This document shows positions 18,695 through 29,337 of a stretch of 64,000 nt of DNA, piece after piece. Origin of the DNA: Candidatus Handelsmanbacteria bacterium (GTDB lineage: Bacteria; Latescibacterota; UBA2968; UBA8231); contig VGJS01000004.1 of the NCBI GenBank assembly GCA_016867395.1, forward strand, positions 16,966 through 80,965, read 5' to 3'. Each line of letters starts with the position of its first letter. Position 1 is the stretch's first letter. Under the pieces are notes generated by a model. The model was not told the DNA's origin. It did no database searches and worked only from the letters and a program-made list of their open reading frames with translations. A program made the position numbers and the translations under genes.

Positions 18695-19246
18695 ATGCCT
18701 CTCACCACCCAGGAACTGCACACCCGCGCCCAAAAGATCCGCCTGATCCTCACCGACGTGGACGGGGTGTGGACCGACGGCAAACTCTGGTACGTGCCCG
18801 GCCACGGCGAGGAGATGGTCGAGGTCAAGGCCTTCAACACCCAGGACGGCATGGCCTTCCGCTGGGCCCACGCCGCCGGCCTCAAGACCGGCCTGATCAG
18901 CGGCCGCGAGTCGCCGGGGGTCACCCACCGCGCCCGCATGTTGGGCGTCACCTACATCTACCAGAACTTCCTGGAGAAGATCCCCCCCTACGAGGAGATC
19001 CTTAAACAGTCCGGCCGGAGCGACGCCGAGGTGGCCTATCTGGGCGACGACCTGCCGGACCTGCCCCTGATGAACCGGGTGGGCCTGGGGGTGGCCGTGG
19101 CCAATGCCCGTTCCCAGGTGAAGGCCGGGGCCGGCTATGTGACCGCGGCCCCAGGCGGGGACGGGGCCATCCGCGAGGTAATCGAGTTGATCATGGAGGC
19201 TCAGGGGACCTGGGCTGCGGTGCTGGAGAAGTACGGAGTGGCCTGA
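18695..19246 (+). CDS. kdsC: KdsC-like HAD phosphatase (3-deoxy-D-manno-octulosonate 8-phosphate phosphatase)
   Basis: LILTDVDGVWTDGKLWY; FNTQDGMAFRWAHAAGLKTGLISGRES; YLGDDLPDLPLM. Confidence 0.88.
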   Translation: MPLTTQELHTRAQKIRLILTDVDGVWTDGKLWYVPGHGEEMVEVKAFNTQDGMAFRWAHAAGLKTGLISGRESPGVTHRARMLGVTYIYQNFLEKIPPYEEILKQSGRSDAEVAYLGDDLPDLPLMNRVGLGVAVANARSQVKAGAGYVTAAPGGDGAIREVIELIMEAQGTWAAVLEKYGVA

Positions 19247-19330
19247 ACCTGGGGCCGAGTGGCACCGCTTGCCCCCTCCCGGCGAAAATGCTTGTTTTTC
19301 TTTAGCAATCCTCGAAGGGGACTGAATCTG

Positions 19331-21097
19331 ATGAAGCAGGACAACCTGATCCACCCCCCGCCACCGGTAATGACCGCCGCAGAAGCCGAAAGCCCGGAGA
19401 GCTGGGGCTTTCGCGATACGAGATTTGCCTTCACCGAGGACGGGGTAGTCACCATGCTCGGCAACCGCTACGAGCTGAGCGGAAAAAAGCTAGCCCGACT
19501 GCTGCCGTGGATTTGCGAGGTCTTGCAGGTCGAGGTCGATCCCCGCGACCTGCACCGGTCTTCCTACCCGACGGCAATCCCCGAGGCCATCGAGTCAAAA
19601 CCCTTTCTGGAGGCCATCAGCGTCTTTCTCCAGCCCGACCAGCTCGACCGGGACGGCGAGGTCCGCCTGCGCCACGGCCACGGTCAAACCCAGGAGGAGG
19701 TATTTGCTATCAAGTACGCCTGCCTCGGGCGCATCCCCGACCTAACGGTTCACCCGCACAGCGACGAGCAGGTGGCCAAACTGGTCGAGGCCGCCAAAGA
19801 GCACAACGTGGTGCTGATCCCCTTTGGCGGCGGCACCAACGTGACCGACGCTCTGCGCTGTCCCGAGGGCGAAAGGCGGATGATCGTTTCGGCCGACATG
19901 CGGCGGATGAACCGCATCCGCTGGATCGACAAGGAAAACATGATGGCCTGCATCGAGGCCGGCGCGGTGGGGCGCCACCTTGTGGCGCAGCTCGCCGAAC
20001 ACGGCCTGACCATGGGGCACGAGCCGGACAGCGTGGAATTCTCCACCCTGGGGGGCTGGATCGCGACCAATGCCAGCGGCATGAAGAAGAACAGGTACGG
20101 CAATATCGAGGACCTCGTCGTCGATCTGAGCGTGGCCACTGCCGACGGCCGGCTGGCCCACCTGAACACCGCCCCGCGCGAATCCATTGGCTCTGACCTG
20201 CGCCGCTTGATCTTTGGCTCCGAGGGCACCCTGGGCATCATCACCTCGGCAGTGGTCAAGCTCTTTCCCCTGCCCGAGGTCCAAAAGTACGGCTCGATCA
20301 TCTTCCCCTCCTATGAAGACGGGTACCGGTTCATGCGCGACATGGCCCATGCCGGAGCGATCCCGGCCAGCGTCCGCCTAGTCGACAACCTCCAGTTCCA
20401 GTTCGGCCAGACGCTCAAGCCGGCAGCCCAGGGGTTGGCGGCCTGGAAGAGCAGGCTGGAGAAGTTCTTCGTTCTCAGTGTGAAGGGCTTTAACCCTGGG
20501 CGGATGGTCGCCCTGACCCTGGTTTTTGAGGGAACGCGGAACGAGGTCGCCCGCCAGCAGCGCGAGGTCTATCACATCGCCGCCGGGCACGGGGGCATGA
20601 AGGCCGGCAGCGAGAACGGCCGTCGGGGCTATCAACTGACCTACAGCATCGCCTATATCCGCGATTTCCTGTTGAATTACTACATCATCGCCGAGAGCTT
20701 CGAAACCTCCTGTGCGTGGAGCGACGCGCTGGCCATCGACGCCAATGTCAAGCGGATCCTGTACGCGGAGTACGAGAAGCGCGGTCTGCCCGGCAAGCCT
20801 TTTATCACCTCGCGCATCACCCAGGTCTACCGGACCGGGGTGGCGATCTACTTCTACTTTGGCTTCTACTACAAGGGCGTCGAGAACCCCTCGCAGGTCT
20901 ACCTCGAACTGGAGACCATCGCCCGCCACGAGATCCTGCGCTGGGGCGGCTCGCTGTCCCACCACCACGGCGTCGGCAAGATACGCCGGGCCTTCCTGCC
21001 CGAAATCATGTCCCAGACCGGCCTGAAGTGGAAGCAGGAGATCAAGCGCGGCCTCGATCCGCAGAATATCTTCGGGGCGGGCAACCAGAACCTGTAA
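19331..21097 (+). CDS. FAD-binding alkyldihydroxyacetone-phosphate synthase (AGPS) homologue
   Basis: SWGFRDTRF; PDLTVHPHSDEQVAKLV; PFGGGTNVT; GHEPDSVEFSTLGGWIATNASGMKKNRYGNIEDLVV; FGSEGTLGIIT; ASVRLVDNLQFQFGQTLKP; RGYQLTYSIAYIRDFLLNYYIIAESFETS; GGSLSHHHGVGKIRR; DPQNIFGAGN. Confidence 0.88.
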   Translation: MKQDNLIHPPPPVMTAAEAESPESWGFRDTRFAFTEDGVVTMLGNRYELSGKKLARLLPWICEVLQVEVDPRDLHRSSYPTAIPEAIESKPFLEAISVFLQPDQLDRDGEVRLRHGHGQTQEEVFAIKYACLGRIPDLTVHPHSDEQVAKLVEAAKEHNVVLIPFGGGTNVTDALRCPEGERRMIVSADMRRMNRIRWIDKENMMACIEAGAVGRHLVAQLAEHGLTMGHEPDSVEFSTLGGWIATNASGMKKNRYGNIEDLVVDLSVATADGRLAHLNTAPRESIGSDLRRLIFGSEGTLGIITSAVVKLFPLPEVQKYGSIIFPSYEDGYRFMRDMAHAGAIPASVRLVDNLQFQFGQTLKPAAQGLAAWKSRLEKFFVLSVKGFNPGRMVALTLVFEGTRNEVARQQREVYHIAAGHGGMKAGSENGRRGYQLTYSIAYIRDFLLNYYIIAESFETSCAWSDALAIDANVKRILYAEYEKRGLPGKPFITSRITQVYRTGVAIYFYFGFYYKGVENPSQVYLELETIARHEILRWGGSLSHHHGVGKIRRAFLPEIMSQTGLKWKQEIKRGLDPQNIFGAGNQNL

Positions 21098-21870
21098 TGG
21101 GCAGAAGGGCATTGATCACCGGCGCGTCTTCGGGCATCGGCAAGGCCCTGGCGCTCGAATATGCTAGCCGGGGCTTTGACCTCTTGCTGACCGCGCGCAA
21201 CCAGGCCCAGTTGCAGGCCCTAGCCGCCCAGTGCGCGGACCGCTGCGGCGTGGCCGCCCAGGTGCTAGCCGCCGACCTCGCGGACCCCGCCGCCACCGAG
21301 GCCCTAGTCCTCGCCGCGCTCAAAGAGCCGCTTTACACCCTGGTCAACAACGCCGGCTTTGCTATCAAGGGCGAGTTTGTCGCCACAGACATCGGGGAGG
21401 AACTGGACCTGCTCAACGTGCAACTGATCGCCATGCTCAGGCTGACCAAGGCCGTGCTGCCGGCGATGATCGCCAGGGGCGAGGGGCGGATCATGAACAT
21501 CGCCTCGGTCTACTCCTTTTCGGCCGTGCCCAGGCAGGCGGTTTATTCGGCCTGCAAGTCCTTCATGCTCTCGTTTTCCGGTGCCCTGGCCCACGAGCTG
21601 CGTGGCAAAGGGGTGCGCGTGACCGCGGTCTGCCCTGGCACGACGCGGACCGAATTTCGCCGGCGCGCCGGCATCGGTGAAAAAAGTGGGGCAGGGATGG
21701 CCCCCGAAGAGGTCGCCCGCCTCGCCTTTGTTGCCAGCGAGGCCGGGAAGGCCACCGTGGTGCCCGGTTTCTGGAACCGGGTTTTTGTCTTTGCCTCGCA
21801 GCACCTGCCCCTCGCCGCCGCGGCCTCGCTGGTCAGCTATATCAACGACCACCGCGGGGTCAACAAGTGA
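21097..21870 (+). CDS. Short-chain dehydrogenase/reductase, DltE-like
   Basis: ALITGASSGIGKALA; LVNNAGFA; YSACKSF; start overlaps the AGPS-like stop (TAATG). Confidence 0.92.
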   Translation: MGRRALITGASSGIGKALALEYASRGFDLLLTARNQAQLQALAAQCADRCGVAAQVLAADLADPAATEALVLAALKEPLYTLVNNAGFAIKGEFVATDIGEELDLLNVQLIAMLRLTKAVLPAMIARGEGRIMNIASVYSFSAVPRQAVYSACKSFMLSFSGALAHELRGKGVRVTAVCPGTTRTEFRRRAGIGEKSGAGMAPEEVARLAFVASEAGKATVVPGFWNRVFVFASQHLPLAAAASLVSYINDHRGVNK

Positions 21871-21903
21871 TATGGACGCGCCCCCTTCCCGCCGACCAGA
21901 CCC

Positions 21904-23079
21904 ATGAAACTCATCGGCGGCATCCCGGTCTGGGGCAACCCAGTAGATGAGGGGGCGCTCCGCCAGATAAAGAACTGCGCCCGGAGCGCCGATGCCGCGG
22001 CCCTGATGGCCGACCATCATCTGGGCTACGCGGTGCCCATCGGTGGGGTGGTGGCCTACGAGGACCGGATCAGCCCCTCGGGGGTGGGGTACGACATCGC
22101 CTGCGGCAACAAGGCCGTGCTGACCGATCTGCCCGCCGCCGAGGTCCGCGCCCGCATCAGACCCATCATGGACCAGATCTGGTCCACCCTTTCCTTTGGC
22201 ATCGGCTGCAAGAACAACACCCGCGTCGATGACGAACTCTTCGACGACCAGACCTGGTCCCTGCCGGCGGTGGCCCCGCTCAAGAAGATGGCCCGGGAGC
22301 AACTGGGCACCATCGGCTCGGGCAACCACTATGTGGACCTCTTGGAGGACGAAGAGGGCCGCCTGTGGATCGGGGTCCACTTCGGCTCGCGCGGCCTGGG
22401 CTACCGAACCGCCACCTACTTTCTGCGGGCCGGCGGAGCCAAGGACGGCATGGAGGTCGATCCCCTGGTGTTGCCCATCGCCTCTGACCTGGGCGCCGAG
22501 TACCTGGCCTGCATGAAACTGGCCGGCCGCTACGCCTACGCCGGCCGCGACTGGGTCTGCGAGGAAGTGGCCCGCCTGCTGGGGGCCACCATTCTGGAAG
22601 AGGTCCACAACCACCACAACTTCGCCTGGCGCGAAAAACACCAGGGCCGGGACCTGTGGGTAGTCCGCAAGGGCGCCACCCCCGCCTTTCCCGGGCAGCG
22701 CGGCTTCGTGGGCGGCTCCATGGGGGATATCTCGGTGATCCTCGAAGGGGTCGAGTCGGAGGAGGCGAAACACGCGCTCTACTCGACCGTACACGGGGCC
22801 GGCCGGGTGATGAGCCGCACCGCCGCCCGGGGAAAGATCCACCACAAGACCGGCAGGGTCATCTCCCCAGGCGCGGTCTCGCGCCAGATGATGCTCGACT
22901 GGATCAGGGAACAGGACGTCGAACTGCGCGGGGCCGGCACCGACGAATCGCCCCACTGCTACAAGCGCCTGCCCGAGGTGCTGGCCCACCATGCCCCGAT
23001 GGTCCGCATCCTCCATACCCTCAAGCCGGTAGGGGTGGCCATGGCCGGCGAGGACGAATTCGACCCGTACAAGGACTGA
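21904..23079 (+). CDS. rtcB: RtcB-family RNA-splicing ligase
   Basis: SGVGYDIACGNKA; GSGNHYVDL; GVHFGSRGLGYRTA; NHHNFAWREKH; RKGATPAFPGQRGFVGGSMGD; HGAGRVMSR. Confidence 0.9.
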   Translation: MKLIGGIPVWGNPVDEGALRQIKNCARSADAAALMADHHLGYAVPIGGVVAYEDRISPSGVGYDIACGNKAVLTDLPAAEVRARIRPIMDQIWSTLSFGIGCKNNTRVDDELFDDQTWSLPAVAPLKKMAREQLGTIGSGNHYVDLLEDEEGRLWIGVHFGSRGLGYRTATYFLRAGGAKDGMEVDPLVLPIASDLGAEYLACMKLAGRYAYAGRDWVCEEVARLLGATILEEVHNHHNFAWREKHQGRDLWVVRKGATPAFPGQRGFVGGSMGDISVILEGVESEEAKHALYSTVHGAGRVMSRTAARGKIHHKTGRVISPGAVSRQMMLDWIREQDVELRGAGTDESPHCYKRLPEVLAHHAPMVRILHTLKPVGVAMAGEDEFDPYKD

Positions 23080-23088
23080 ACGGACTCC

Positions 23089-23904
23089 ATGATCCCCTCT
23101 AATGACGAATACTTCTTCGACCTGCGCGGCTACACTGTCATCCCCCGGGCCCTGGACCCCGCGCACCTAGCCGCGATCAATGCCTGGATCGACGCCCTGC
23201 CCCCGCTCGAAACCGGGCAGTGGCTCGGCAATGTGTACACCCAGTCCTACGGCGGCATCGACGGGATCAACCTGCAGGACATCATCGAGGCCGGCGAGCT
23301 CTTTGAGCGCCTGATCGACCACCCCGCCTGGATCGACCCAGTGCGCCACTATCTGGGACCCAGCACCAAGCCCTACATCTACGAGATCTTCGTCAATGTG
23401 CGCGGGACGGGCGGGTACATCGGGGTGCATTCGGGGGGGCACAACGTGGACCACTACCAGCGCAGCGGCCGGCGCAATGGCCAGTGGGTCTGCCCCATGC
23501 TCTCCCTGCTGGCGCCCCTGACTGACGTGGGACCTGGGGATGGGGCCACGGTGGTGGTGCCCGGCAGTCACAAGTCCGACCTCCCCCATCCCCAACAGGA
23601 AGGGCGAGGCAGGATCACCAGTGGCCCGGGCGAGGTGTTGGAAGGGGCGATCGAAATCCACCTCGAGGCCGGCGACGCCCTGCTCTTCAACGACGCCCTC
23701 TGCCACGGTTCGGCCCAGCGCCTCAACCCAGGCCAGCGGCGGATGATCACCATCCGTTACGTGCCGGCCATGCACGCCCACCGCTTCGGCTACCAGCCCT
23801 CGCCGGAGCTGGTTTCCCGATTGACCCCGGAGCGGCTGGCCCTGGTGCAGCCCATCGCCCCCCGCCAGCGGCCGGTCCCCCCCGACAGAAGAGGAAACCC
23901 TTGA
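23089..23904 (+). CDS. Phytanoyl-CoA dioxygenase (PhyH) family protein
   Basis: YTVIPRALDP; IGVHSGGHNVD; DGATVVVPGSHKSDLPHP; GDALLFNDALCHGSA. Confidence 0.85.
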   Translation: MIPSNDEYFFDLRGYTVIPRALDPAHLAAINAWIDALPPLETGQWLGNVYTQSYGGIDGINLQDIIEAGELFERLIDHPAWIDPVRHYLGPSTKPYIYEIFVNVRGTGGYIGVHSGGHNVDHYQRSGRRNGQWVCPMLSLLAPLTDVGPGDGATVVVPGSHKSDLPHPQQEGRGRITSGPGEVLEGAIEIHLEAGDALLFNDALCHGSAQRLNPGQRRMITIRYVPAMHAHRFGYQPSPELVSRLTPERLALVQPIAPRQRPVPPDRRGNP

Positions 23905-25790
23905 ACACCGACGACGACCCGACACAGCTCCACTACACCCCCCCCGAGCGCCTGGTGCAGGAGTTCGCCTGCCGCGGGTTGGTGGTTCTCTCCCCCGAGA
24001 GCCTCGGTGTCCCGGCCCAGATCCACGCCCAGGTCTACGCGCAGGAGAAGGCTGCGTACCTGGCCAAGAAGCCCATCTCCCCGGCCAGTGTGCCCGAGGT
24101 GCTCCAGGTGCTCAATGCTCCCGGCCTGGTTGCCGCCTGCGACCAGTTGATCGGCCCCAACTGGGCCATCGTCCCCTTCACCCACAACGCCTCCTTCACC
24201 AGCGGGGCGCGGGACCAGCACTGGCACAAGGACGACAACGGACCTTACAACGCCCGCAAGCAGCGCCACCACCAGGCCGTGCAGATCGAGATGCTCTATT
24301 ACCCCCAGGCAGTGCGCCCTGACATGGGGCCCACGGCGACCATCCCCTACTCGCAGTACTGGGCCCTCAACCACGAGGAGAACCAGGACAACTTCGCCGG
24401 GGCCGACCACCTCGACTTCAACTACATGCTCAGCGGCATGGAAGGCCAGCCCATCAGCGGCCCGGATTCCAAATACAGCCCCGAAGACATCCGCCACCGC
24501 CGCACGGCCCACGACCTGCGCATGCGCCAGGCGGTGACGGATACTGGCTGGCCCCTGGTCCTGCCCTTGGAGGCGGCCCCGCTGCGGGCCGGCAGCATCG
24601 TGCTGTATTCCCACAACACCTACCACCGAGGGAACCACCGCCGCGACGACTGGCAGGCCTGGGAGCAGAACCCCCGCTTCATGTGGCGCTTCTGGCTGTA
24701 CCGCACCGCCGAGCCGGCCGGCGATCCCCTCCCCGAGCCGGACTGGAACCGCCTCGGCATCGACCCCCTTACCCAGGTGGACCTCGCCGATCCGGGCGAG
24801 GATCTCACTGCAGTCTGGCGCTATCACTACCACTGGATGGTGACGGGCCGCACCCCGCCCCCGCGCCCCGGGCAAGCCGAGACCCTGGCAGCGCAGTTGT
24901 ACGCCAAGCACGAATCGGCCGAGCCGGCCCGCATCGGCGCGGCGTACCGGCTGGCCGCCCTCGGCGACCGAAGGCTGGCGGCGCAACACCTCGAAAGAGC
25001 CCTGTACGACGAGCGGGAGAGCGTGCGGCGGGCCGCCACCTACGGCCTGATCGCCCTGGGACCGGAGGCGACCCCGGTCTTTCTCCGGGCGACTGCCTCG
25101 CCGCTCAAGTGGGTGCGCAAGGCCGGGGTGTACGGCCTGGGGGATGCCAGCCCGCTCACCAGCGAAGTCTTGCAGGCAGCAGCGACCCGCCTGGAGACCG
25201 ACCCCTCCGTGTACGTCCGCGCCGTGGCCGCCGGCACCCTGGGCTGCCTGGGCCGCCGCGCCATCGCCACCGGCGAGGGCCGCGACCTGGTGCCCGCCTG
25301 CCTCGTAGCCCTGGTGCAGAGCCTCTCTCGCGAGGAGAACCGCCCCTGCATGAGCCGGGCCCAGGGCCGGTCCATCAAGTTTGTGCGGCCCACCGACGAG
25401 TGCGACGTGTGCGAGGGGGCCGGGGTCGACTTCGGCCTGGAGCGCTTCAAGCCGGTGCGCTCGGCGGTCCGCGAGAACGCCCTGTGGTCCCTCGTCATCC
25501 TCTGCTCCCACGGCGCCGGGGTGTTGAGAGAGGCCCTGGAGCCGGCGGTGCTGGCCCTGAAAAAGGTGATACGCGAGGACCAGAACGCCATCTGTGTCGG
25601 CATGGCGATGGACGCCCTGAGCCGGCTGGTCCACCTGCGCCCGGCCGGCGAGGCGGAAGCGCCCGCGATCAGGGCCCTGAAAGCCGAACTAGTGGATGTG
25701 CTGGGAGAGGCGCCCCTCCGGCCCTGGGAGGCCCTGGTGCGGGGGGGCTTCGGCGCAGAGAACTTGGCGCGCTTTGCCCCGCCGGCCTGA
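23901..25790 (+). CDS. PhyH-like dioxygenase fused to C-terminal HEAT-like repeats
   Basis: N-term: HWHKDDNGPYN, TATIPYSQYWAL, AGSIVLYSHNTYHRGNHRRD; C-term helical repeats RIGAAYRLAALGDRRL / VRRAATYGLIALG / WVRKAGVYGLGDAS / VRAVAAGTLGCLG; TTG start overlaps previous stop. Confidence 0.75.
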   Translation: MNTDDDPTQLHYTPPERLVQEFACRGLVVLSPESLGVPAQIHAQVYAQEKAAYLAKKPISPASVPEVLQVLNAPGLVAACDQLIGPNWAIVPFTHNASFTSGARDQHWHKDDNGPYNARKQRHHQAVQIEMLYYPQAVRPDMGPTATIPYSQYWALNHEENQDNFAGADHLDFNYMLSGMEGQPISGPDSKYSPEDIRHRRTAHDLRMRQAVTDTGWPLVLPLEAAPLRAGSIVLYSHNTYHRGNHRRDDWQAWEQNPRFMWRFWLYRTAEPAGDPLPEPDWNRLGIDPLTQVDLADPGEDLTAVWRYHYHWMVTGRTPPPRPGQAETLAAQLYAKHESAEPARIGAAYRLAALGDRRLAAQHLERALYDERESVRRAATYGLIALGPEATPVFLRATASPLKWVRKAGVYGLGDASPLTSEVLQAAATRLETDPSVYVRAVAAGTLGCLGRRAIATGEGRDLVPACLVALVQSLSREENRPCMSRAQGRSIKFVRPTDECDVCEGAGVDFGLERFKPVRSAVRENALWSLVILCSHGAGVLREALEPAVLALKKVIREDQNAICVGMAMDALSRLVHLRPAGEAEAPAIRALKAELVDVLGEAPLRPWEALVRGGFGAENLARFAPPA

Positions 25791-26362
25791 TGAACTGGCT
25801 GGCCCATTTCCTGCTCGCCGAGCCCGAGCCCGCTTTTCGCGTGGGCAGCGTGTTGCCCGATTTCGCCCCCCCTGCCCTGCTGGCCGCCCTGCCCCCTGTC
25901 TTCCAGTCCGGCATCAAGCAGCACCGCCGGGTGGATCTCTTCACCGACGCCCATCCCCTCTTCCGCCGCAGCCGGCACCGCTTCCCTTCGCCCTTGCGCC
26001 GTTTTGCCGGCATCCTCACCGACGTCTTCTACGACCACCTGCTGGCCCGGAACTGGTCCTCCCACTCTGCGGTGCCCCTGCCCGACTTCGCCGCCCAGGT
26101 CTATGCGGCCATCGCAACCTGCCGCCCCGAGCTGCCGCCCGAGATCTACGGCCGCCTGGCGAGGCTGCGGGACGCCGACCTGTTGGGGGCGTACGGGGAA
26201 TTGGAGGGCCTCGCCCGGGTGCTGGCCGGCATCGGCGCCCGACTGCGGCGGCCGGTGGACCTGGGGGCGGCCCTTCCCGTCCTACGGGATCAGTTCGCCG
26301 GCTTTGCCGCAGACTTCAAGGCGTTCTTTCCCGAACTGCGCGAGGCTGCGGCGGCCGGCTAG
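25790..26362 (+). CDS. AcpH-like acyl-carrier-protein phosphodiesterase (DUF479)
   Basis: MNWLAHFLLAEP..RVGSVLPDFAP; IKQHRRVDLFTDAHPLFRRS; RFAGILTDVFYDHLLARNW. ATG within TGATG overlap. Confidence 0.85.
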   Translation: MNWLAHFLLAEPEPAFRVGSVLPDFAPPALLAALPPVFQSGIKQHRRVDLFTDAHPLFRRSRHRFPSPLRRFAGILTDVFYDHLLARNWSSHSAVPLPDFAAQVYAAIATCRPELPPEIYGRLARLRDADLLGAYGELEGLARVLAGIGARLRRPVDLGAALPVLRDQFAGFAADFKAFFPELREAAAAG

Positions 26363-27450
26363 CCCCGCGCCCCTTCGCGCCGCAACAGCTCGGCCTTTCG
26401 CTCCACCCCCCAGCGGTACCCCGACAGGGAAGCGTCGCGCCGCACCACCCGGTGGCAGGGTATGGCCACGGCCAGGGTATTGGCCGCGCAGGCCCCGGCC
26501 ACGGCCCGGGCCGCCCTGGGCCGCCCGAGTTTCTCGGCGATCTCGGTGTAGGTGGTTGTCTGGCCGGGGGGGATCTGGCGCAGCATCTCCCAGACCCGCC
26601 GCTGGAAGGCAGTGCCGCGCACATCGAGGGGCAGCTGATGCCCCAGCCCCGGCTGCTCCACCAGCCCCACGGCCTGGGCCACCCACTGGTCAAAGGCCGC
26701 GCCCCCACCGCTCAACACTGCCCTGGGGAAGCTATCTTGCAGCTGGCGGGCCAGGGCCTCGGGGTCGTCGCCCAGCAGGATGGCGCAGACCCCCTGGTCG
26801 GTGGCGGCCACCAGCACCGACCCCAGCGAACACGCCCCCACGGCAAAGCGGATGGACACTCCTTGCCCGCCGGCGCGATAGACCCCAGGGGTCATGCCCA
26901 GCTCCTGGGTAGAGGTGGCGTAGAAGCGCCCGCTGGAGTGGTACCCCGCTCCGTAGATCGCTTCGGTAACACTCGCCCCCTGGGCCAGGCCCTGGCGGAC
27001 CCGCTGGGCCCGCTGGGCCGCGGCATAGGCCCTGGGGGTGAGGCCAGTGGCCTCTTTGAACACCCGGTGGAAGTGATAGGGGCTCAGTCCCGCGCTGACG
27101 GCCAGCGCCTTCAGGTCGGGCGTGGACTCGGATTCCCGGATGAGGACGCAGGCCCGGGCCACCACCTCGCGCCGGCGCTCCGCCAGCGGAGCCTCCTGGG
27201 GTCGGCAGCGCTTGCAGGGCCGGAATCCCGCCTCCTCGGCCTGGGCGCCGCAGTCGTAGAAGCACACATGCTCCCGTTTTGCCAGCCTGGAGCCACAGGT
27301 GGGCCGGCAGTACACCCCGGTGGTCTGCACCGCGTACACAAAGGCCCCTTCGGCAGCGGGATCGCGGCGCAACAGAGCCTGCCAGCGGCTTTCACCGTCG
27401 GCAAAAGGGTGGGGGATGGAAGGGGATGCGGGTTGGGGTTGGGCGAGCAT
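26359..27450 (-). CDS. ada: Ada: methylphosphotriester/O6-methylguanine-DNA methyltransferase and AraC-type regulator
   Basis: TTGVYCRPTCGSRLAKREHVCFYD...GFRPCKRCRP; AraC HTH; C-term IPCHRVVRRDASLSGYRWG. Confidence 0.95.
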   Translation of the reverse strand: MLAQPQPASPSIPHPFADGESRWQALLRRDPAAEGAFVYAVQTTGVYCRPTCGSRLAKREHVCFYDCGAQAEEAGFRPCKRCRPQEAPLAERRREVVARACVLIRESESTPDLKALAVSAGLSPYHFHRVFKEATGLTPRAYAAAQRAQRVRQGLAQGASVTEAIYGAGYHSSGRFYATSTQELGMTPGVYRAGGQGVSIRFAVGACSLGSVLVAATDQGVCAILLGDDPEALARQLQDSFPRAVLSGGGAAFDQWVAQAVGLVEQPGLGHQLPLDVRGTAFQRRVWEMLRQIPPGQTTTYTEIAEKLGRPRAARAVAGACAANTLAVAIPCHRVVRRDASLSGYRWGVERKAELLRREGARG

Positions 27451-27466
27451 GGTCTGCCTCCTTGAG

Positions 27467-27494
27467 AGATTATTCCTGCTGTCGGGAATAATCT
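27467..27494. promoter_or_regulatory. Perfect 10-bp inverted repeat just upstream of ada
   Basis: AGATTATTCC - tgctgtcg - GGAATAATCT, 17 bp upstream of the ada start, next to an AAGGAGG ribosome binding site. Confidence 0.6.
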
Positions 27495-27539
27495 AACCCC
27501 CTGCCCAGACCCCGGCGCTCCGGTTCTTGCGCCCGAATC

Positions 27540-28130
27540 TTATTTTTGCGGAGGGCGCTGGGCGCTCTTGGGGCGGAAGGCTTTCACCACCTCGTCGCGG
27601 GCGGTGACGTACGGACCGCCGATCAGGTCGAGGCAGTAGGGCACCGCGGCGAAGATGCCCGGCACCGGGGGCCGGCCCTCGGCGACGGGCAGGCCCTCGA
27701 GGGTCTCCTTGATCGACTTGGGCTGGCCGGGCAGGTTGAGGATCAGGGTGCGGCCGCGTATCACCCCTACCTGCCGCGAGAGGATGGCCGTGGGCACGAA
27801 ATTGAGGGAGATCTGGCGCATCTGCTCGCCGAAACCGGGCATCACCCGATGGGCCACCGCCAGGGTGGCTTCGGGGGTAACATCGCGCGGGGCCGGGCCA
27901 GTGCCGCCGGTGGTCAGCACCAGGTGGCAGCCGGCCTGGTCACACAGCTCGATGAGGGTGGCCTCGATCACCTGCTGCTCGTCGGGGATCAGTCGCCTCT
28001 CGGTGCGCCAGGGGGAACTCAGGGCCCGGCCGAACCACTCCTCCAAGGCGGGAATACCCTGGTCCTGGTACACCCCGCTGGCGGCGCGGTCCGATATCGA
28101 GACAAGACCGATCAGCAGTTCGTCGCCCAT
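27540..28130 (-). CDS. mog: Molybdopterin adenylyltransferase (MogA/MoaB family)
   Basis: IGLVSISDRAASGVYQDQGIPAL; VLTTGGTGPAPRDVTPEAT; NLPGQPKSIKETL. Confidence 0.9.
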   Translation of the reverse strand: MGDELLIGLVSISDRAASGVYQDQGIPALEEWFGRALSSPWRTERRLIPDEQQVIEATLIELCDQAGCHLVLTTGGTGPAPRDVTPEATLAVAHRVMPGFGEQMRQISLNFVPTAILSRQVGVIRGRTLILNLPGQPKSIKETLEGLPVAEGRPPVPGIFAAVPYCLDLIGGPYVTARDEVVKAFRPKSAQRPPQK

Positions 28131-28131
28131 C

Positions 28132-29337
28132 TCATCCCCCCAGCAGTTCCCGCACCCGCTTGCCCGCCAGTTGCGGCTCACCCTCCTTCAGGCACATGGG
28201 CCCGAAGAGCACCACCCCTTCGCTCACCCGCGAGGGATTGGCGTGGATGCCGGGGGTCCCGTCCTGCAACCGTTTCACCAGCTCCAGGGCCGAGAAGCCC
28301 AGGGCCCCCTCGTCGAGGTGCAGGGCGAGGAGGGGGATCTCGGAGCGCTTGGGATCGTTGGCCAGTTCAACCCGGGCGTGGGGCAAGGCACCGATGGCCG
28401 CTACCAACTCCTCCATCAGCTTCAGCCAGCGCCCCCGCCGCACCTGCGGGTCCTCCTCCACAAAGAGCCGGAGCGCCGTCAGCAACCCGACGATCTCCTC
28501 CTTGCCCACCTTGCAGGGCCGGCCGATGCCGTGGTGCGGGGCTCCGGGCAACCGGCTCTTGTCGATGAGGGAGGCTGGCGGGTTCCACTGGGCAAAGTAG
28601 ATATCAAGGTCCAAATGTTGCAGGGCCGCGGCCTCGATCAGCTCGCGCTTTCCGCAGAGGATGCCCGAACTCTGCGGCCCGCGTATGGCCTTGCCTCCGC
28701 TGAAGGCCACCAAGTCCGCTCCTTCGGCGATGAAGCGCCGGAGGTTGTCGGCCGGCGGCAATTGCCCGGCCGCGTCCACGATCACCGGCACCCCGGCCCG
28801 GTGCGCCACCTCCACCACCTGGCGCAGGGGGGGCAGGGAGTGGGCGTAGGCCACGTAGCAGACCGCGGCGGTCTGCCCGTCGATGGCCGCCTCGATCTCC
28901 CAAGGCTCGGTGTCGCGCACCCCGGCCCCGCTGTAGCGGTCGGCGATGCCCACCTCCACCAACCTCACCCCGGCCGAGCGCACCGCGTGGTCGTAGAAGT
29001 TGCGGTGGCTGCGGGCCATGATCACCCGGTTCTTCATCCCCCGGGTGTCGGGCAGGCGGTTCATCTTGGTGGGGTCCAGCCCGGTGACGCAGGCCGCGGT
29101 GCCCAGGAGCAGGCCGGCCGCCGCCCCGCTGGTGACGTACCCGGCCTCGGCCCCGGTGACCTGAGCGATGTACTGCGAGGCATGGGCCTGCAGCACGGCG
29201 ATGTCGACGCAATACTGCGACGCCTCTTTCATCGCCTCGGCCACCTCGACCGGCATGATGGACCCGCTCAGCCGCGTCGCCGGCCCCGAAGCGTTGATGA
29301 TCGTCGGTACCCCGAGTTTTTCGTAGATGTTGGGCAT
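28132..29337 (-). CDS. SelA-like PLP-dependent lyase/transferase (D-glucosaminate-6-phosphate ammonia-lyase-like)
   Basis: GVPTIINASGPATRLSGSIMP; VTSGAAAGLLLGTAAC; FSGGKAIRGPQSSGILCGK PLP-lysine motif. Confidence 0.8.
   Translation of the reverse strand: MPNIYEKLGVPTIINASGPATRLSGSIMPVEVAEAMKEASQYCVDIAVLQAHASQYIAQVTGAEAGYVTSGAAAGLLLGTAACVTGLDPTKMNRLPDTRGMKNRVIMARSHRNFYDHAVRSAGVRLVEVGIADRYSGAGVRDTEPWEIEAAIDGQTAAVCYVAYAHSLPPLRQVVEVAHRAGVPVIVDAAGQLPPADNLRRFIAEGADLVAFSGGKAIRGPQSSGILCGKRELIEAAALQHLDLDIYFAQWNPPASLIDKSRLPGAPHHGIGRPCKVGKEEIVGLLTALRLFVEEDPQVRRGRWLKLMEELVAAIGALPHARVELANDPKRSEIPLLALHLDEGALGFSALELVKRLQDGTPGIHANPSRVSEGVVLFGPMCLKEGEPQLAGKRVRELLGG

Follow-up and report, generated by a model that had tools for sequence, protein, structure and literature searches.

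Six co-directional genes lie in a row in the window, the 64,000-nucleotide stretch analysed here, and we consider it likely that only the first two belong together. These encode a homologue of alkyl-DHAP synthase (AGPS) and a short-chain dehydrogenase/reductase (SDR) and would form a two-gene module, an Acidobacteria-type xenologue inserted into a variable slot 3' of kdsC, with the four other genes as unrelated neighbours. The window is part of contig C4 of a draft assembly of 4.94 Mb in 248 contigs. All six open reading frames are present and uninterrupted, with the overlaps described in an earlier sequence-only reading, and Pfam agrees with the domains assigned there. The features are, with Pfam E-values where given:

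18737..19246, + strand: KdsC-like HAD phosphatase, end of the zwf-glk-fba-kdsC block and left border of the variable slot (NCBIfam TIGR01670)
19331..21097, + strand: homologue of alkyldihydroxyacetonephosphate (alkylglycerone-phosphate) synthase, AGPS, 588 aa (Pfam FAD_binding_4 1.5e-37 and FAD-oxidase_C 1.5e-35; 4bby match, tree, residues, fold search)
21097..21870, + strand: SDR, 257 aa, putative alkyl/acyl-DHAP reductase (Pfam adh_short 1.6e-45; AGPS linkage, SDR tree)
21904..23079, + strand: RtcB-family RNA ligase, 391 aa, probably outside the lipid module (Pfam RtcB 2e-66; copies in G001 and G004)
23089..23904, + strand: PhyH-family protein, 271 aa, probably outside the module (Pfam PhyH 1.6e-18; 83% identical copy in G001)
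23901..25790, + strand: PhyH-HEAT protein, 629 aa, a host-class family, probably outside the module (Pfam HEAT 8.3e-8 and a marginal PhyH match of 1.8e-4; 79% identical in G001, 64-72% in the host family and class)
25790..26362, + strand: AcpH-like protein, 190 aa, probably outside the module (Pfam ACP_PD 1.5e-53; AcpH-like-Ada pair also in G002)

Read directly in the sequence, the AGPS and SDR genes overlap in TAATG at 21097, the PhyH-HEAT gene begins with a TTG at 23901 that overlaps the PhyH stop, and PhyH-HEAT and AcpH-like overlap in TGATG at 25790.

The AGPS homologue and its SDR partner

The sequence-only reading took the first open reading frame for an AGPS rather than a generic oxidase, and match score, phylogeny, active-site residues and fold search agree on this. 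Among proteins of known structure, guinea-pig AGPS (4bby) was matched with 536.7 bits (E=5.3e-160) over residues 23-587 of the window protein (565 residues), Dictyostelium AGPS with 315.8 bits and the best non-AGPS FAD oxidase with 115.6 bits. Sequence identity was 44% to the guinea-pig enzyme (561 residues) and 33% to that of Dictyostelium. Guinea-pig R182, H300, D303, T309, R419, R515, Y578 and H615-617, which we take, partly on the basis of the AGPS literature, to represent the active site, are all identical in the alignment with the window protein (R112, H230, D233, T239, R349, R444, Y507 and H544-546), as they are in every aligned AGPS row from the host class and the Acidobacteria. R419 and Y578 are experimentally mutated positions according to the titles of PDB entries 4bc7 (R419H) and 4bca (Y578F). 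A fold search with an AlphaFold model of modest confidence (pLDDT 63.5), built from the window protein and ten relatives, returned nothing but AGPS in the first 37 ranks, namely 29 mammalian chains followed by Dictyostelium 2uuu/2uuv. In the AGPS tree, the window protein, the acidobacterial and host-class proteins and guinea-pig AGPS form one clade of 25 rows (100/100), and plasmid-borne FAD oxidases from Streptomyces, Cupriavidus, Moraxella, Mycobacterium and Paracoccus fall outside of it; long branches are involved in the rooting, and Dictyostelium AGPS has no firm position at the base of the clade. Both the catalytic residues and the clade, which the sequence-only reading had singled out for checking, are thus of the AGPS type. 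The 4bby score, the tree and the active-site residues rule out that the protein is a GlcD-type or lactate oxidase.

The FAD_binding_4 superfamily is functionally broad and the host genome encodes three further members, so the AGPS fold might have acquired a new role, as an oxidase or in forming a different C-O bond, and the SDR would then use the product. We consider this improbable because the checked catalytic positions are of the AGPS type, unlike those of the GlcD-type paralogues of the host, which are devoid of R182, H300, D303, R419, R515, Y578, H615 and H616 (guinea-pig numbers), because the tree groups the window protein with mammalian AGPS, and because FAR and GNPAT-like genes adjoin AGPS in relatives. 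We regard the first open reading frame as a genuine AGPS homologue, which presumably has the corresponding enzyme activity in the host.

The second protein carries the motifs TGASSGIG, NNAG and YSACK and is therefore a classical SDR with an NAD(P) motif and YxxxK. Its best curated model was mycolate reductase, which scored 172 bits and so fell below the 380-bit cut-off of that model. The earlier proposal that AGPS and SDR form a two-step unit implied that relatives should keep the two genes together, and they do so in 9 of 11 close relatives and at all seven host-class loci examined. In the nine close relatives, an SDR with 47-57% identity lies on the same strand downstream of AGPS; in seven the two genes are immediate neighbours, and in L007 and L008 an acyltransferase gene lies between them. 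In the Acidobacteria loci L005 and L006, an acyltransferase gene follows AGPS and the SDR was not found there. At the host-class loci (7/7), AGPS is followed directly or within about one gene by a different kind of SDR, that of L050 being recognised by motif. The specificity of an SDR cannot be read from its sequence; the chief pointer to a putative alkyl/acyl-DHAP reductase is that the gene is linked to AGPS.

The variable slot and the four other genes

Within the genus, the zwf-glk-fba-kdsC block is conserved (86-94% identical in all four same-genus genomes, G001-G004), and the cargo following kdsC differs in each of five same-genus genomes. This slot extends in the window from kdsC to a SelA-like gene (19246-28132; see also L036 and L072-L077), and in G006 kdsC adjoins the SelA-like gene, so that the borders of the slot touch. 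In G001, the block is followed by a beta-carbonic anhydrase gene (Pro_CA 1.3e-56) and then by PhyH and PhyH-HEAT genes, whose products are 77-83% identical to the window copies; AGPS, SDR and RtcB were not found in this stretch. By visual inspection of the translations, two other genes separate kdsC from an AcpH-like-Ada pair in G002, where AGPS is absent, the genes after kdsC in G003 read as components of 2-oxoglutarate dehydrogenase, and G004 has a gene there that reads as HsdM. As the slot is variable, co-directional gene order in it says little about function.

Co-direction and overlapping stops and starts make co-transcription of all six genes possible, and they had been taken as signs of an island in which the two dioxygenases and the AcpH-like protein act on related lipid or carrier substrates. 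That the six genes constitute one functional lipid- or carrier-modification operon is nevertheless very unlikely, since the full set is kept in no second genome examined, not even within the genus, and the slot is filled by other genes in G001-G004. RtcB, PhyH, PhyH-HEAT and AcpH-like genes occur in sister genomes without AGPS and, conversely, none of the four adjoined AGPS at any AGPS locus examined, whether from the 11 close relatives or from the host class. On the synteny of the sister genomes we therefore reject the six-gene operon, and the idea that the module also includes RtcB, both PhyH proteins and the AcpH-like protein finds no support. The RNA ligase, which had been left unexplained, is best read as an unrelated neighbour, since RtcB occurs without AGPS in relatives: copies with 78-79% identity lie on other contigs of G001 and G004, both genomes without AGPS.

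Copies of the PhyH-HEAT protein with 64-79% identity occur throughout the host family and in some of the class, and AGPS was not adjacent at the PhyH-HEAT loci fetched from these. The fusion, with its HKD motif, is probably a lineage-specific enzyme. Recoding was considered for G011, in which two genes had been flagged for an in-frame TAG, and dismissed: the TAG in its PhyH-HEAT gene (L033) marks the natural C-terminus, and alignment of its acyltransferase to the copy from the window's genome (L078) shows no stop. In the PhyH protein encoded at 23089-23904, the expected HxD iron-binding pair, located by eye, reads HSG (GVHSGGHNVDHY), also in G001. An HxG pattern is known from some 2OG halogenases.

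Origin of the AGPS-SDR pair

The closest relatives of the window AGPS, with 67-73% identity, are encoded in ten MAGs of Acidobacteria and at L011, in a MAG that bears the label Latescibacterota; the L011 contig matches contig C96 of G024, which belongs to the same class as the host. The host family and class otherwise carry a divergent AGPS that is 43-49% identical to the window protein. Among 40 class genomes searched, 34 including the window's own gave a large AGPS match and G013 a fragment; no AGPS was found in the remaining five, which are all four same-genus genomes (G001-G004) and G032. Because G001-G004 are 84-93% complete, incompleteness is unlikely to account for the absence of AGPS from all four.

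In the AGPS tree, the window protein groups with L005-L007 (98/91), and vertical inheritance together with the host-class AGPS is ruled out, as the forced grouping was rejected (AU p=1.75e-6). A position as sister of the L011 AGPS is absent from the tree and was not rejected (AU p=0.054), for which reason one and two transfers are both possible. The SDR tree has the same two-way split as the AGPS tree, and its clade of Acidobacteria type (100/99) includes the window SDR. Linkage and the matching split suggest that AGPS and SDR moved together; an acidobacterial relative is the probable source of the pair. This suggests that a lipid step near-universal in the host class was lost in one genus and regained from another lineage.

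AGPS and SDR of Acidobacteria type in a draft assembly of 248 contigs with an estimated contamination of 5.69% could also be an artefact of a contaminant contig or of misassembly. This explanation has hardly any credit left, since the same contig carries zwf-glk-fba-kdsC 87-92% identical to same-genus G001, PhyH/PhyH-HEAT on the other side of the pair are 77-83% identical to G001, and the GC3 of AGPS (0.857) and SDR (0.837) is near that of neighbouring genes. The native flanks on both sides of AGPS-SDR rule out a contaminant contig; a local misassembly inside the contig is possible.

Partner genes, proposed route and known systems

In animals, peroxisomal AGPS (EC 2.5.1.26) works with the DHRS7B/PexRAP reductase, and the next step of the pathway is of the SDR class. 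The window pair resembles this system in the 44% identity over 561 residues, the conserved active site and the SDR as next gene. It differs in that there is no peroxisome, in that the AGPS and SDR genes are adjacent and overlapping, and in that the GNPAT-like partner of the host is too divergent for Pfam. Candidate routes to bacterial ether lipids, to which the brGDGT climate proxies are related, are ElbD, Ger/PlsA and AGPS.

Genes for the other steps of such a route adjoin AGPS in relatives. The gene order at L011 is ACS-FAR-acyltransferase-like-AGPS-SDR, and in the f3 and f4 genomes it is FAR-acyltransferase-like-AGPS. The acyltransferase-like family (640-660 aa) is present in 39 of 40 class genomes and adjoins FAR and AGPS in several. 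The two copies compared here are:

L011:5827-7821: acyltransferase-like gene, 664 aa
L044:7936-9852: acyltransferase-like gene, host copy (contig C17, 638 aa, 55% identical to the L011 copy)

The protein has no meaningful match among Pfam families, NCBIfam acyltransferases or PDB entries; we call it GNPAT-like because it has the motif H-x4-D (HQSLLD) and because FAR and AGPS genes lie next to it, and it may work like GNPAT, the DHAP acyltransferase. Outside the window, the host further encodes an ElbD-like protein of 1394 aa (contig C68:12229-16413, L043) with the Pfam domains NAD_binding_4, Sterile, AMP-binding and Acyltransferase; a carrier domain, which gave no Pfam match, is suggested by a DSL motif in the translation. 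Across the host family, this gene is found full-length or partial with about 50-81% identity. In the window's genome, the GNPAT-like and ElbD-like genes are unlinked to AGPS-SDR. The plasmalogen desaturase CarF/PEDS1 (PF10520) had no match in the host genome, but none in the control genomes either.

Because the host encodes ElbD-like and GNPAT-like proteins elsewhere, a DHAP-route alkyl-ether pathway is plausible. The GNPAT-like protein from C17 would supply acyl-DHAP and the ElbD-like FAR-ACS-acyltransferase from C68 the fatty alcohol. AGPS would then swap the acyl chain of 1-acyl-DHAP for the fatty alcohol via an FAD adduct, and the SDR would reduce the keto group of the resulting 1-O-alkyl-DHAP with NAD(P)H to 1-O-alkyl-glycerol-3-phosphate, which could enter phospholipid synthesis. 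The enzyme activities in the host, the substrate of the SDR, the function of the acyltransferase-like protein and the lipids are predictions.

Bacterial AGPS is already known from Myxococcus and is widespread in MAGs; this analysis adds a conserved SDR partner, a xenologous replacement and synteny evidence that breaks up the six-gene island. MXAN_1676 of Myxococcus xanthus shares about 42% identity with human AGPS, and the operon MXAN_1676-1674 encodes AGPS, a FAR1-GNPAT fusion and an NAD-dependent epimerase/dehydratase; loss of AGPS lowers ether lipids slightly, ElbD being the main contributor (PMC9131029). Similarities to the window system are a bacterial AGPS beside a reductase-family gene, FAR and acyltransferase genes beside AGPS in the window's relatives, and an ElbD-like FAR-ACS-acyltransferase in the host. 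In contrast to M. xanthus, FAR and acyltransferase of the host are separate genes unlinked to AGPS, the partner in the window is a classical SDR and not of the epimerase family, and AGPS-SDR, being xenologous, occupies a variable slot.

According to the excerpted text of a homology survey, Agps homologues of the same gene family as in the window occur in many phyla of environmental MAGs, including 67 of 92 Black Sea Latescibacterota MAGs (PMC11868695); relative to that part of the survey, SDR linkage and the replacement between two clades are described here. In sponges, Acidobacteriota and Poribacteria have ElbD-type clusters with the same FAR-ACS-thiolation-acyltransferase order as the C68 gene of the host, but these clusters are centred on elbD, and the excerpted text does not mention AGPS (PMC9426513). 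The closest AGPS-SDR relatives belong to the Acidobacteria, in which ether-bound lipids are documented: subdivision-4 members contain them abundantly, and several genomes have elb homologues (PMC10087280, PMC13274423). Tentatively, and with more doubt than confidence, AGPS-SDR, in some genomes with a PlsC-type acyltransferase in between, could be viewed as a transferable ether-bond module of subdivision-4-kind Acidobacteria and the host class that makes the abundant glycerol monoethers of subdivision 4, as a DHAP-based route beside ElbD and Ger. The AGPS-SDR pair is compact and similar to the animal enzyme, its link to the likely next step recurs across genomes, and it lends itself readily to expression and assay.
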